From an uncultured Lachnospiraceae bacterium (GTDB lineage Bacteria; Bacillota; Clostridia; Lachnospirales; Lachnospiraceae), in contig CADCIK010000029.1 of assembly GCA_902801415.1 (NCBI GenBank), forward strand, positions 1 through 64,000: a stretch of DNA of 64,000 nucleotides, written 5' to 3'. Positions 2,523-41,771 of the stretch are shown one piece after another. Below the pieces are notes generated by a model. That model did not search any database, was not told the origin of the DNA, and saw only the letters and a program-made list of their open reading frames with translations. Every line of letters begins with the position of its first letter. Position 1 is the first letter of the stretch. Made by a program: the position numbers and the translations under genes.

Positions 2523-4007
2523 ATGGATATCATGTACAGAAGCACCCGTTCAGAAAGTAAGCCCATTACAGCCTCTCAGGCGATCCTTCGCGGATTCCCC
2601 GAAGACGGAGGCCTCTATGTTCCCACAGCGGTTCCTTCGCTGGATACGGGACTGGAAGTGCTTGCGGCAATGGATTACAAGGGCGTGGCTTATGAAGTCA
2701 TGCGCCTTCTTCTTACGGACTACACAGATGAGGAGCTCAAGGCGTGCATTGAAAGCGCCTATGACAGCAAGTTCGATACGGATGAGATCGTCCCTCTGAA
2801 AAAGTCCGGAGATGCCTGGTATCTGGAACTGTTCCACGGCCCTACGATCGCGTTCAAAGATATGGCGCTCTCTATTTTGCCCTATCTGATGACGACGGCG
2901 GCAGCCAAGAACGGATCCGGCAAGGAGATCGTGATCCTGACAGCGACGAGCGGCGACACCGGCAAGGCTGCGCTCGCGGGCTTTGCTGGCGTCAAGGGAA
3001 CAAAGATCATGGTCTTTTATCCCAAGAACGGCGTATCCTCCATTCAGGAGAGACAGATGGTGACGACTGTCGGAGCCAATACAAGAGTCATCGGTATTAA
3101 CGGCAACTTCGACGACGCACAGACCAGTGTCAAAAACCTGTTCACCGATCAGGTGCTCGTCTCGGAGATGGCGGAGCACGGCATGCAGTTTTCCTCTGCC
3201 AACTCGATCAATATCGGACGCCTGACGCCTCAGATTGTTTATTATGTATTTGCCTATACAAGACTTCTTGCAGACGGTGCGATCAAGGCCGGGGACCCGG
3301 TCAATTTTGTGGTGCCTACAGGCAATTTCGGCAATATTCTGGCCGCTTACTACGCAAAGAGAATGGGCCTTCCGATCGGCAAACTGATCTGTGCGTCCAA
3401 CTCCAATAAGGTCCTGTTCGATTTCTTTGAGACAGGCGAGTATGACAGAAACCGCGAGTTTATCCTGACCAGCTCTCCCTCCATGGACATTCTGATCTCC
3501 AGCAATCTCGAGAGACTGATCTACCACATCAGCGGAGACAGCGCGGACCGCTGTGCCGCGTTTATGAAGGAACTCAAGGAGACCGGAAAGTATACGATCA
3601 CTGAAGAGATGAGAGCGCAGCTGTCTGACTTTGTAAGCGGCTATGCCGATGAGGAGCAGACTGCGGCGGAGATCCGCGAAGTCTTTGAGAACGACGGCTA
3701 TGTGATCGATCCTCACACCGCGGTCGCCAGCAGCGTATACAGAAGATACCGCAGAGAGACCGGCGACAGCACACCTTCCGTGATCGACTCTACGGCAAGC
3801 CCCTTCAAATTCGAGGGATCCGTCATGAAAGCGCTCGGACAGGATACTTCCCTGCCGGATCTCGAACTCGCCGACAAGCTCAGCGAAGTCGCGAAGGTTC
3901 CCGTTCCCAAGGCCGTGAGCGATCTGCGGGATGCGCCTGTGCTGCACGACATTGTCTGCGACAGGGACGATATGAAGCGGGAAGTGAAGCGTTTTCTCGG
4001 ACTTTGA
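2523..4007 (+). CDS. thrC: Threonine synthase
   Basis: Converts O-phosphohomoserine to L-threonine using pyridoxal phosphate. The PLP lysine sits in the motif HGPTIAFKDMAL (Lys about residue 112), and the phosphate-binding loop TATSGDTGKAAL follows at about residue 140. The protein has 494 residues, normal for the long bacterial/fungal type of threonine synthase, and an N-terminal block (YRSTR...GLYVP) typical of the family. Start chosen at 2523 because AAAGGAAG lies 7 bases upstream; an ATG at 2505 is in frame but lies in front of that site. No thrB or hom is adjacent, so pathway partners are elsewhere. The next gene begins 80 bases downstream and may be co-transcribed. Confidence 0.95.
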   Translation: MDIMYRSTRSESKPITASQAILRGFPEDGGLYVPTAVPSLDTGLEVLAAMDYKGVAYEVMRLLLTDYTDEELKACIESAYDSKFDTDEIVPLKKSGDAWYLELFHGPTIAFKDMALSILPYLMTTAAAKNGSGKEIVILTATSGDTGKAALAGFAGVKGTKIMVFYPKNGVSSIQERQMVTTVGANTRVIGINGNFDDAQTSVKNLFTDQVLVSEMAEHGMQFSSANSINIGRLTPQIVYYVFAYTRLLADGAIKAGDPVNFVVPTGNFGNILAAYYAKRMGLPIGKLICASNSNKVLFDFFETGEYDRNREFILTSSPSMDILISSNLERLIYHISGDSADRCAAFMKELKETGKYTITEEMRAQLSDFVSGYADEEQTAAEIREVFENDGYVIDPHTAVASSVYRRYRRETGDSTPSVIDSTASPFKFEGSVMKALGQDTSLPDLELADKLSEVAKVPVPKAVSDLRDAPVLHDIVCDRDDMKREVKRFLGL

Positions 4008-24031: not shown

Positions 24032-24067
24032 ACAAAGCGATTGCAGTAGTGCAAAAAAATAATAGTT

Positions 24068-24217
24068 TTCAGCACTCCACGTCCCAAATGCTGCGCATTC
24101 GGGACTGTGGGCGTTCAGAGGCGCTTCGCGCCTTGTCCGCCCCGGAAAAATGATCAAAAACGTCCCGGTGAGCGAGCTCCCCGGTCCTTATTTTGATCAT
24201 TTTTCCGGGGTGCTGAA
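24068..24217 (+). repeat. Structured dispersed element, copy 1 (between convergent tRNA operons)
   Basis: 150 bp bounded by the inverted arms TTCAGCAC and GTGCTGAA. Inside, in order: hairpin B (an 11-bp stem starting GTCCC, ending GGGAC), hairpin C (AGGCGC/GCGCCT, 24119-24133), the single-stranded TGTCC (24134-24138), and long hairpin D, a 20-bp stem (24140-24159 with 24191-24210) whose loop carries TGAGCGAGCTCCC (24169-24181). It shares most of its sequence with copy 2 and its fold and motifs with copy 3. No reading frame fits it. Both neighbours have their own terminators outside it. Confidence 0.8.
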
Positions 24218-24232
24218 TAAAAACAAAAAGAA

Positions 24233-34820: not shown

Positions 34821-34830
34821 AGGGTTTCTT

Positions 34831-34972
34831 TTCAGCACTCACGTCCCAAATGCTGCGCATTTGTGACTGTGGCGTCCAGAGGCGCTGCGCGCCTTGTCCG
34901 CCCCGGAAAAAGATCAAATCGATCCGATGAGCGAGCTCCCCGGCTCTCATTGCTCTTTTCCGGGGTGCTGAA
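34831..34972 (+). repeat. Structured dispersed element, copy 2 (between convergent genes)
   Basis: 142 bp with the same boundaries as copy 1 (TTCAGCAC ... GTGCTGAA). Hairpin B is kept with its mismatch at a different place, hairpin C is AGGCGC/GCGCCT (34880-34894), TGTCC at 34895-34899, and stem D is CCCCGGAAAA (34901-34910) with TTTTCCGGGG (34956-34965). The loop carries TGAGCGAGCTCCC at 34928-34940. The upper part of stem D differs from copy 1 but can still pair in part. Confidence 0.8.
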
Positions 34973-34973
34973 A

Positions 34974-35013
34974 AAAACAAAAAATCGGCTGCCGGGTCAG
35001 GTGCAGCCGATTT
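34974..35013 (-). terminator. Terminator of rpsT
   Basis: On the - strand AAATCGGCTGC (35013-35003) pairs with GCAGCCGATTT (34992-34982), followed by a T-rich run into copy 2 of the structured element. Confidence 0.85.
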
Positions 35014-35034: not shown

Positions 35035-35295
35035 TCAGATCTTGTTGATCGTGCTGGCAAGACGGGAAACCTTACGGGAAGCGTTGTTCTTGTGAAGAAC
35101 GCCCTTGCTTGCAGCCTTGTCGATCGTAGCTTCTGCAGCGACGAATGCAGCTGCAGCTGCCTCTTTGTCACCAGCCTCAACAGCCTTGTGGACTTTCTTG
35201 ATCGCAGTCTTCACGGAAGACTTAACAGCCTTGTTGGCAGCAGCTCTCTTAGCGCTTGTAAGAATTCTCTTCTTGGCAGATTTGATGTTTGCCAT
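35035..35295 (-). CDS. rpsT: 30S ribosomal protein S20
   Basis: 86 residues, full length, with the S20 N-terminus MANIKSAKKRI and the helical, Lys/Ala-rich body ending in HKNNASRKVSRLASTINK. Binds 16S rRNA early in 30S assembly. A good AGGTAATAAGG site precedes the ATG. It stands alone on the - strand with its own terminator. In the leader (35340-35380) a GAGCCCTGT/ACAGAGCTC stem with one mismatch could form, but no regulatory role can be claimed. Confidence 0.97.
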   Translation of the reverse strand: MANIKSAKKRILTSAKRAAANKAVKSSVKTAIKKVHKAVEAGDKEAAAAAFVAAEATIDKAASKGVLHKNNASRKVSRLASTINKI

Positions 35296-40064: not shown

Positions 40065-41120
40065 ATGCTTGCTGATTCCGCAATACTGAAAGAAGATATG
40101 GCCTGGATCTCTTCCTCGGATCTTCCCTGGGACAAACTCAGAAACAGCACGGTCCTTGTGACGGGGGCGACGGGACTGATCGGTATGACGACGGTATTCG
40201 CGCTTCTTGCTGCTGACAGGGACCATGACCTGGGACTGCAGGTCATTGCGCTTGTGCGCAGCCCTGAAAAGGCTGAGAGAGTATTGGGCAGTCATAAGGA
40301 AAACGCGGCGCTGACTTTCCTGCAGGGAACCATGGAGGAGCTGCCGCAGCTTCCCGGGAGGATCGACTACTGGATCCATACGGCGTGTCCTACGGCGAGC
40401 GCTTTTATGACTGCGCACCCTGTCGAGGTGATCCGGACTTCCGTGGAGGGAACCGCCTCTTTGCTTGAAGAGGCGCGAAAGCGCAGTGCGCGCGGATTTG
40501 TCTATCTCTCCAGCATGGAAGCTTTCGGTGAAGTTAATACGGAAGAGCTGCTCGATGAAAAAGCGCTGGGGAACGTGGACCTCTCCAAGGTGAGAAGCTG
40601 CTACCCCGAGAGCAAGAGAATGTGCGAAATGCTCTGCACCAGCTACGCAATTGAGTACGGAGTTCCCGCCATGAGCATCCGCCTTGCACAGACCTTCGGG
40701 CCCGGTGTCGACTACAGCGACAGGCGCGTTTTTGCCATGATGACCCGAAACGCGATCAGCGGGGAGGATATCGTGCTCGCGACCAAGGGAACAAGCCGTC
40801 ATCCTTACCTTTACACAGCCCAGGCGGTCACTGCGATCCTGACAGTCCTGCTTAAGGGAACGCCGGGAGAGACCTATAACGCGGCCAACCCTGAGACTTA
40901 CTGCTCGATCTACGAGATGGGTGAGATGGTGGCGGAACAGCTCGCCGGCGGCAGGATCTGTGTGAGGGTGGACGAAAACGGAGACGCATCCCGCTATCCC
41001 GCGCCGAGTTTTCTCAATATGGATATCGGCAAAATACAGAGGCTCGGATGGTCTCCCGCCCATGACCTCGTATGGATGTACAGAAGGCTGGAGGAGTATT
41101 TGAGAGAAGAGATGGGGTAG
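40065..41120 (+). CDS. NAD-dependent epimerase/dehydratase (extended SDR)
   Basis: 351 residues. Rossmann motif VTGATGLIGMT (about 28-38), the substrate-side YLSSMEAFGE, catalytic YPESK (Tyr-xxx-Lys, about 186-190) and RLAQTFGPGV are all present. Extended SDRs of this type modify nucleotide sugars. The cytidylyltransferase directly upstream suggests a CDP-activated substrate. It is the last gene of this + strand group; no simple terminator follows, but copy 3 of the structured element starts 15 bases after the stop. Confidence 0.87.
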   Translation: MLADSAILKEDMAWISSSDLPWDKLRNSTVLVTGATGLIGMTTVFALLAADRDHDLGLQVIALVRSPEKAERVLGSHKENAALTFLQGTMEELPQLPGRIDYWIHTACPTASAFMTAHPVEVIRTSVEGTASLLEEARKRSARGFVYLSSMEAFGEVNTEELLDEKALGNVDLSKVRSCYPESKRMCEMLCTSYAIEYGVPAMSIRLAQTFGPGVDYSDRRVFAMMTRNAISGEDIVLATKGTSRHPYLYTAQAVTAILTVLLKGTPGETYNAANPETYCSIYEMGEMVAEQLAGGRICVRVDENGDASRYPAPSFLNMDIGKIQRLGWSPAHDLVWMYRRLEEYLREEMG

Positions 41121-41134
41121 TCATTGAGTTATCC

Positions 41135-41293
41135 GCGCATGGCTGCTAATGAGCCATGCCGACAGCTTCGCGTCTTAAGGACGCTCACTGTCGCGGCGTT
41201 CGCCGTATGTGTCCAACATGACATTCGGTCACCTGTGAGCAAGCTCCCGATGCCCGAAGTCCTGTTGGTCACGCATGGCTCATTGCTACGCGC
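41135..41293 (+). repeat. Structured dispersed element, copy 3 (diverged, same fold)
   Basis: 159 bp. The outer stem AATGAGCCATGC (41148-41159) pairs perfectly with GCATGGCTCATT (41273-41284), flanked by GCGC at both ends. Hairpin B is GACAG/CTGTC with inner GCGTC/GACGC, hairpin C is CGGC-GTTC-GCCG (41194-41205), TGTCC is at 41210-41214, and stem D is 41213-41228 with 41254-41268 (CCAACA/TGTTGG, GAC/GTC, TTCGG/CCGAA). The D loop holds TGAGCAAGCTCCC (41236-41248). Stems differ in sequence from copies 1 and 2 but pair equally well. A second GCATGGCT at 41137-41144 competes for the same AGCCATGC. Confidence 0.72.
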
Positions 41294-41331
41294 AAAAAAA
41301 AGATCACCGACGGGTTTCCATCGGTGATCTT
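41294..41331 (-). terminator. Terminator of rpmB
   Basis: On the - strand AAGATCACCGA (41331-41321) pairs with TCGGTGATCTT (41310-41300) and is followed by seven T. Confidence 0.9.
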
Positions 41332-41388
41332 ATTTAATTCTGATCATCATATTCTGATCGTAAGAATTGATACGGCTGAAGCGGCTCA

Positions 41389-41577
41389 TCAGATAGCGCG
41401 CTCGACCTTGCCGGATCTAAGGCAGCTGGTGCAGACATGCATTCTCTTCTTAGCGCCATTGACGTTCACAGCAACCTTCTGGACGTTGGAATTCCAGATT
41501 CTGTTAGATCTTCTATGAGAATGGCTGACGTTATTTCCAAAATGAGCGCCTTTGCCGCAGATATCACATTTTGCCAT
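41389..41577 (-). CDS. rpmB: 50S ribosomal protein L28 (zinc-binding form)
   Basis: 62 residues, full length. CDIC near the start and CTSC near the end form the zinc-binding Cys set of the C+ form of L28. The core FGNNVSHSHRRSNRIWNSN is typical. ATG at 41577 is fixed by AGGAGGTG upstream; three extra codons are open before it. It stands alone on the - strand and is divergent from the asp23-fakA operon, the usual Firmicute arrangement. Confidence 0.97.
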   Translation of the reverse strand: MAKCDICGKGAHFGNNVSHSHRRSNRIWNSNVQKVAVNVNGAKKRMHVCTSCLRSGKVERAI

Positions 41578-41771
41578 CTTAAACACCTCCTAACGTACAT
41601 ATTCGTTAAAGCGGCGCATGAGACAATACATCCTTTTCTTTTCTTTGGTTTAAGGGTATAATCTAAATTGATTTATAGTGACCAATAGGCCGATGTTTGG
41701 AACAGAAAAGAATTTTTGGCCGCGACAGATCATGAATACGCAGCCGGTTCGGCTTGAAAGGAGAACAGCCT

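Follow-up and report, generated by a model that had tools for sequence, protein, structure and literature searches.

Copy 3 is a folding intergenic element that lies between the ribosomal protein gene rpmB and an epimerase gene in DNA of an uncultured Lachnospiraceae bacterium (GenBank assembly GCA_902801415.1, contig CADCIK010000029.1). The stretch analysed, positions 1 to 64,000 of this contig, is called the window. Copy 3 belongs to a family, here termed class 1, of dispersed repeats of ~150-195 nucleotides (nt) that are widespread in Lachnospiraceae, with several to many copies in many genomes, and the base pairing of the class 1 element is under selection. Two other elements in the window, copies 1 and 2, form a separate class 2. 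The features at the copy 3 locus are listed below in window coordinates; the sense strand of the element is the minus strand.

40065..41120, plus strand: NAD-dependent epimerase/SDR gene, the convergent neighbour (PF01370, E 4e-35)
41134..41146, minus strand: 13-nt remnant GCAGCCATGCGCG after copy 3; similar partial copies are seen by eye behind other members
41146..41293, sense strand minus: copy 3, a class 1 element; its 5′ end is at 41293, where TTT meets GCGCG, and its core is 41286-41146
41146..41159, minus strand: outer stem P1, sense 3′ arm (alignment and covariation)
41160..41193, minus strand: hairpin B, sense CGACAG...CTGTCG, with an internal TGA/GAA loop (helices 5-7 of the tested structure)
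41194..41205, minus strand: hairpin C, sense CGGCGAACGCCG, loop GAAC (covariation and loop counts, 81 copies)
41209..41272, minus strand: arm D, a long hypervariable hairpin with apex G(CTTG)C (covariation in 81 copies)
41273..41286, minus strand: outer stem P1, sense 5′ arm GCAATGAGCCATGC (columns 1-14 of alignment A5)
41300..41331, minus strand: Rho-independent terminator of rpmB, the T run of which adjoins copy 3
41389..41577, minus strand: rpmB, ribosomal protein L28 (PF00830, E 1.9e-22)

Read along the minus strand, copy 3 begins right at the T run of the rpmB terminator, with TTTTTTTT followed directly by GCGCGTAGCAATGAGCCATGC. The covariance model R1, run against the genome of the window itself, matches copy 3 at 41145-41297 with 146.6 bits (E 1.4e-38). 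A preliminary description of this DNA had set the element at 41135-41293. Most of this span is the element proper (~41146-41293), and the outermost part belongs to the separate remnant at 41134-41146, which is probably the beginning of a truncated second copy. Eight Rfam matches obtained near copy 3 at relaxed thresholds were rejected; all are under the gathering scores, and five of them lie on the minus-strand terminator.

The sequence 41121-41293, taken on the plus strand, has a fold of -79.2 kcal/mol (z -5.85), and none of 200 shuffled sequences folds as well. The stems CCAACA/TGTTGG, GAC/GTC, TTCGG/CCGAA and GAG-CAAG-CTC, as named in the preliminary description, are all present in the minimum-energy fold of this sequence, and its TGAGCAAGCTCCC is the complement of the arm D apex. 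Copy 3 also has, as had been stated, the same layout as copies 1 and 2, with strong folds in all three (z -8.9 for copy 1 and -5.7 for copy 2) and a sequence unlike theirs: in searches of genome DNA at E <= 10, the copy 1 query did not list copy 3, and the copy 3 query listed neither copy 1 nor copy 2. The motif TGAGCRAGCTCCC occurs three times in the draft genome (2.39 Mb, 86% complete), all in the window at 24169, 34928 and 41236, i.e., one per copy. It is found in 40 of 146 related genomes, and the pattern read backwards gives 3 matches. With two mismatches allowed, in the window alone, 5 occurrences were seen compared with 2.3 expected, which is within chance. The preliminary description had numbered copy 3 together with copies 1 and 2 as one family. 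Here it is placed in a class of its own, and the model built from copy 3 relatives misses copies 1 and 2 at E <= 1e-3.

Used as a DNA query, copy 3 has relatives in 38 of the 146 related genomes, a count that includes the window's own genome; 36 of the 38 belong to its genus. From the first 36 copies, 34 were aligned and a class 1 covariance model was built from them; L047 was left out as a near-duplicate of L044, and L085 because of an insert. This model at E <= 1e-3 has matches in 42 of 62 genus genomes, 328 when summed over genomes. At E <= 1e-6, with ~8 candidates scored per genome, it finds class 1 in 161 of 348 Lachnospiraceae genomes and in 154 of 333 genera. Across the phylum 4 of 299 genomes are matched, all Lachnospiraceae, one of which is the window's own genome. 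The G+C content of class 1 matches is mostly 0.5-0.6.

A scan of public genome records with the class 1 end pattern gave at least 119 stretches. Among the matches listed, most are titled Lachnospiraceae, and the carriers include Roseburia inulinivorans, Butyrivibrio sp. WCD3002 and many rumen and gut metagenome-assembled genomes. An exact match to the end pattern on the viral contig IMGVR_UViG_3300009944_000206 (L237:7004-7025) was discarded as an element, the rest of the fold being absent there. At the gathering score no Rfam family matches the elements in the window, at 20 distant loci or at 9 class 1 loci; the Rfam matches at those loci are to neighbours or to host RNA (tRNA, T-box, RNase P).

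For the analysis of covariation, 81 copies of less than 90% identity, from 106 eligible, were aligned with MAFFT by sequence only. The tested structure was itself predicted from these aligned copies, and its outer stem was extended manually; this favours the structure, above all in the proportion of cells paired, which is 88.5% compared with 73.4% when shuffled. Both sides change in 29 of the 48 pairs (24.2 shuffled), double-change cells number 626 (181 shuffled), and the covariation score is 0.398, compared with 0.131 for shuffled controls and at most 0.088 for slid partners. All 17 arm pairs and all 4 apex pairs of arm D are doubly changed in at least one copy. The outer stem and hairpin C say little on covariation because both vary little; in hairpin C 99.4% of cells are paired and 3 of the 4 pairs are invariant. 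The outer P1 pairs 1-3 are paired in 58, 48 and 42 copies. The preliminary description had proposed selection on base pairing and had named covariation among collected homologues as the test, and with homologues gathered the doubly changed pairs and cells bear the proposal out. It should be noted that covariation beyond the controls does not separate RNA from single-stranded DNA.

Pairing is also kept in 28 pairs of copies with matching flanks, in which the arms differ. Copy 3 and L218, the copy at the same rpmB site of a relative, share 64% of arm D and 85% of the C-B part, and between L159 and L231 a T-A pair is replaced by C-G. Some of the matching-flank pairs are more likely to be separate insertions at the same terminator, because their 3′ ends differ.

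The preliminary description had read the fold on the plus strand, and this reading is reversed here. Mismatches in arm D were counted in 123 of 135 unique copies, arm D being unparsed in the other 12. The predicted folds of the sense strand display 152 single G·A mismatches compared with 6 C·T, and 108 of 148 two-by-two loops are GA/GA. Without strand-specific selection, G·A and C·T would be expected to be about equally common. Because the mismatches on the sense strand are so asymmetric, the minus strand is taken to be the folded strand of copy 3. The sense strand is also the more stable of the two in 78 of 81 copies with DNA parameters and in 76 of 81 with RNA parameters, and likewise in 18 of 20 distant copies (RNA parameters).

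In the same 81 copies the loop of hairpin C is c(GNAB)g in 77 and GNRA in 3, the loop of arm D is g(CNNG)c in 59, and the loop of hairpin B is c(GNA)g in 37. Among the 20 distant copies, scored by eye, 18 have c(GNA)g, c(GNAB)g or c(GNNA)g in hairpin C, one of these being the sole GNRA. The title of Nakano et al. 2002, as it stands in the reference list of PMC8373063, gives d(cGNNAg), d(cGNABg) and d(gCNNGc) among four stable DNA tetraloop motifs, and a title cited in PMC11292364 describes d(GCGAAGC) as an extraordinarily stable hairpin. Single-stranded DNA is favoured because the loops of the element fit these stable DNA-loop motifs. Thus single-stranded DNA is placed ahead of RNA as the folded form, which is not to say that it is proven.

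The sense 5′ junction is constant, with TTT meeting GCGCG. Immediately in front of it stands TTT in 113 of the 122 copies that could be parsed, with 5 further copies unparsed, and at the parsed junctions GAAG is found in 45, GTAG in 28, GTTAG in 21 and GTAAG in 12. Upstream sequence was sufficient in 127 copies for a terminator test; in this and the hairpin test the junction start points come from a fuzzy match and may be one base off. A hairpin ends within 14 nt upstream of 77 of the 127 class 1 copies. The same is true of 53 of 1684 positions chosen at random, of 58 of 1241 TTTN sites and, on the far side of the element, of 13 of 125 positions. A stricter terminator detector fires at 65 of 127 copies and at 35 of 2263 random positions; because terminators whose T runs are short or interrupted escaped it, the hairpin criterion was adopted. 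Open frames of 150 codons or more contain the midpoint of the element in 29 of 125 cases, compared with 981 of 1250 random positions.

A subtype without a terminator is seen in Roseburia, Lachnospira and related bacteria; its elements end at AACTGNAATTT and have nearly the same letters in front of them: by eye, ~13 of 26 rows have near-matching letters on both sides, and the other rows are chance matches or have the left copy missing. The longest AACTGNAATTT-ending members end behind a CAGTT/AACTG hairpin. Related elements at L354, L355 and L360 are preceded by TACACCA, one base and TTTGCGCGAAAAC, which is possibly a site-specific landing motif.

Orthologous sites are filled or empty, i.e., the element shows presence/absence variation. 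Thirty rpmB loci were fetched, of which 24 were readable by eye; the element is present in genomes G000 and G024 and shortened in G045, and 21 of the 24 have no element within 330 nt. The elements at rpmB in G000 and G024 carry different arms. In G038 an element also lies near rpmB, as judged by coordinates only. The sense 3′ end is variable, and in some copies a truncated second copy follows (by eye).

Size, intergenic position and copy number would all agree with a classical miniature inverted-repeat transposable element (MITE), for which a DDE transposase would read the outer stem as terminal inverted repeats and move the element as double-stranded DNA. L130 has near-perfect terminal inverted repeats of ~24 nt, and L193 is similar. 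However the 5′ repeat is retained, whereas the outer part of the 3′ repeat is often lost or changed, and a double-stranded substrate would not be expected to give strand-asymmetric mismatches. No larger element sharing these ends was seen that could be an autonomous partner; in five stretches between facing ends, inspected by eye with no family search, no transposase was recognised in the open frames. Target duplication is not evident by eye either, and the AACTGNAATTT direct repeats in one subtype carry the same letters at different loci. A MITE of this kind is considered very improbable.

Several copies are found linked to RNA genes and leaders. In all three window copies the sense orientation is, by eye, that of the upstream transcribed unit. 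At seven loci (L060, L075, L084, L150, L209, L059 and L230) the element lies behind the terminator of an apparent T-box leader; the Rfam T-box model at the gathering score is silent on the five of these that were scanned. In four family genomes (L348, L349, L351 and L353) it is found directly behind a tRNA gene of the same orientation, or within ~50 nt of it, and at L348 the tRNA 3′ end overlaps the inverted repeat of the element. In genome G377 a class 1-like element (L352:3166-3312) is located inside RNase P RNA at 2962-3438 (minus strand). This insert of ~124 nt sits at the tip of one hairpin of a class A RNase P RNA that is otherwise complete. The hairpin is presumably P12.

Such positions bear on the possibility that the element is a structured RNA first, i.e., a cloverleaf that would be transcribed by terminator read-through or as part of a T-box leader, a tRNA operon or rnpB, would serve the host or RNA processing, and would be mobile only secondarily. 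The orientation of the window copies would suit this, as would the 13 of 127 copies after T-box sequence and the 6 of 127 after tRNA, the copy that forms a domain at a hairpin tip of RNase P RNA, and the strong covariation; G-U pairs also number 78 in the sense strand, more than the 41 in the antisense strand. However G-U makes up only 78 of 2984 pairs, hairpin C is rarely GNRA (3 of 81 copies and, by eye, 1 of 20 distant ones), and no promoter-like site is found in 41000-41700, which is a weak point since 1.0 is expected in shuffles. Different arms at one site and sister-species sites that are without the element argue against a conserved host function. A primary RNA role is considered rather unlikely.

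Insertion behind terminators would also fit a retro-element, the RNA 3′ end of which would pair with the terminator T run and prime reverse transcription, leaving a fixed end there and truncation at the opposite end, as in long and short interspersed nuclear elements (LINE/SINE) or group IIC introns, which target terminators according to excerpts of PMC4424553. One end of class 1 is indeed fixed and the other variable, the antisense fixed end bears an A run, and genes with RVT_1 are present in some copy-rich genomes (G027, G029 and G053). However RVT_1 shows no association with the element, being present in 15 of 42 genomes that have the element and in 9 of 20 that do not (p = 0.58), and at E <= 1e-10 it is not found in copy-rich G005, G008, G050, G014, G054 and G038, nor in G000, although genes can be missing from draft assemblies. 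It is the sense strand that folds, and not the one with the A run, and no Rfam intron family matches the elements. A reverse transcriptase was thus rejected as the general engine, and a retro-element is held to be highly doubtful. A retron-like layout, with two small hairpins and a variable long hairpin between complementary ends, was dropped because there is no linked reverse transcriptase.

The search for a mobilising enzyme gave one candidate. Genes like the repetitive extragenic palindrome (REP)-associated tyrosine transposases (RAYT), i.e., for longer Y1 proteins, occur, among the matches listed, in 22 of the 42 genomes that have the element and in 2 of the 20 that do not (p = 0.0018). 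With NF047646, the cut-off of which is 80 bits, the six RAYT-like proteins tested reach 64-76 bits; two proteins of the window's genome have 76 and 64 bits. RAYT was not accepted as a proven engine, since it co-occurs with the element but is not linked to it, and is kept as a candidate only. The open frames next to RAYT-like genes at L325 and L333 give repeated peptides on translation. These two loci suggest that RAYT-like transposases have their own, different flanking repeats.

The reading preferred here is that class 1 is a non-autonomous mobile repeat, the terminator-sense strand of which is a predicted four-helix cloverleaf, and that a transposase acting in trans moves it in the form of folded single-stranded DNA; we give this about an even chance. 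The transposase would act on the folded single-stranded cloverleaf, the first candidate being a Y1 (HUH) enzyme, and the cut would fall after a hairpin and then TTT. Terminators may be used as a likeness of the element's own right end, because the non-terminator subtype itself ends in AACTGNAATTT, its longest members behind a hairpin. Pairing and stable loops would be kept for recognition of the folded single strand: if the strand must fold to be recognised, pairing is kept and arm sequence is free to drift. Because of the filled and empty sites, the tandem partial copies and the fixed junction often found behind hairpins, selection on pairing may serve mobility, probably in DNA form, and not a host RNA function.

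A number of observations weigh against movement as folded single-stranded DNA. The mismatch counts rest on predicted folds. The 77 hairpin C loops are not independent, because hairpin C is nearly invariant, and hairpin B has its c(GNA)g loop in under half of the copies. The tetraloop G(CTTG)C, as G(CUUG)C, is also stable in RNA, so that arm D cannot separate DNA from RNA. The stricter detector fires as well at 483 of 1370 TTTTT ends elsewhere in the loci, and a T-run preference may therefore explain part of the terminator preference. Neither a clean target-site duplication nor an exact empty-site junction was obtained. Copies after T-box sequence and the copy within RNase P RNA lie in sense orientation in transcribed RNA. 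With ~8 candidates scored per genome, many family genomes have a single match. As for the enzyme, the RAYT co-occurrence statistic ignores phylogeny and rests on hand sorting; no element lies within ~2 kb of RAYT-like genes in any of 20 regions, three of which are from the window's own genome and some of which end at contig ends; and IS200-size Y1 transposases show no association with the element in the 62 genus genomes (p = 0.59). A hairpin lies upstream of 3 of 20 class 2 copies, and so is not general to both classes.

A wider claim may be tentatively raised, and we consider it rather doubtful: that class 1 represents a new single-strand transposition system shaping the intergenic regions of many Lachnospiraceae, with a drifting-arm cloverleaf of exceptionally stable DNA loops, and that its transposase would land at intrinsic terminators, at T-box attenuators and at the ends of tRNAs because these mimic the hairpin-plus-TTT right end of the element itself. 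Class 1 sets a large folded insert behind terminators, T-box attenuators and tRNAs, and once inside RNase P RNA, and such inserts could affect termination and the 3′ ends of essential genes. The strand-asymmetric G·A mismatches and the DNA-type loops also suggest a test, applicable to sequences without other data, of whether a conserved fold is RNA or single-stranded DNA.

The two class 2 elements of the window are also found behind terminators.

24064..24228, sense strand minus: copy 1, behind the terminator (by eye) of minus-strand tRNA genes
34829..34982, sense strand minus: copy 2, behind the terminator of a minus-strand 86-amino-acid gene at 35035-35295, read by eye as probably rpsT (S20)

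Class 2 has relatives in 30 of the 62 genus genomes, and G045, G054 and G007 hold many copies that are 89-95% identical. Both sides change in 30 of 46 pairs in 20 aligned copies. In L290, L281 and L283 partial self-repeats follow class 2 on the sense strand, and in L290 the 3′ part (3′ half of hairpin B and outer stem) is repeated in tandem. In an unfiltered search of 501-base stretches, the class 1 model matches copy 1 over its full length with 19.6 bits and copy 2 over arm D only with 10 bits. The two classes have in common the order D-C-B within the outer stem, a GAGC-YY-GCTC apex and GNA loops. Because layout, apex and GNA loops are shared, classes 1 and 2 are probably distant kin. The layout that the preliminary description saw in copy 3 as in copies 1 and 2 thus holds, and common descent of the classes is only weakly supported.

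In literature on Lachnospiraceae, Roseburia and Butyrivibrio repeats, REP/RAYT, terminator-targeting repeats and group IIC introns, with most subscription journals outside its scope, the class 1 family was not found described in the titles and abstracts listed. Closest in kind are REP and bacterial interspersed mosaic elements (BIME), which like class 1 are dispersed, intergenic, palindromic and strand-specific, and RAYT-like proteins are present in the window's genome. Excerpts of PMC8266576 state that E. coli TnpA-REP binds single-stranded REP and not its inverse, and that stem mismatches matter there. However a REP is a hairpin of 20-50 nt mostly led by GTAG, whereas class 1 has four helices in ~150 nt with GTAG at 28 of 122 junctions, and a RAYT gene is expected beside REP repeats, whereas none of the 20 RAYT-like regions holds a class 1 copy.

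The likeness to tnpA-type elements lies in the fixed orientation, the left junction after a short motif and a similar right-end motif (AACTGNAATTT in the non-terminator subtype). In contrast to these, class 1 is without a linked tnpA, has a far more elaborate fold and often a variable sense 3′ end. Group IIC introns, reported in the excerpts of PMC4424553 to insert at intrinsic terminators, share with class 1, but not class 2, the insertion directly behind an intrinsic terminator. However class 1 is far shorter, has no linked reverse transcriptase and matches no Rfam intron. The pneumococcal BOX, RUP and SPRITE are likewise small interspersed structured repeats of a Firmicute, and one BOX element is described in PMC3049150 as forming composite RNA with T-box riboswitches. 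Class 1 differs from these three in its G+C of mostly 0.5-0.6, in that no duplication is seen, and in its fold. The family is best described as strand-polar, cloverleaf-folding, terminator-seeking mobile repeats of the REP/MITE kind, for which a function as RNA is possible.
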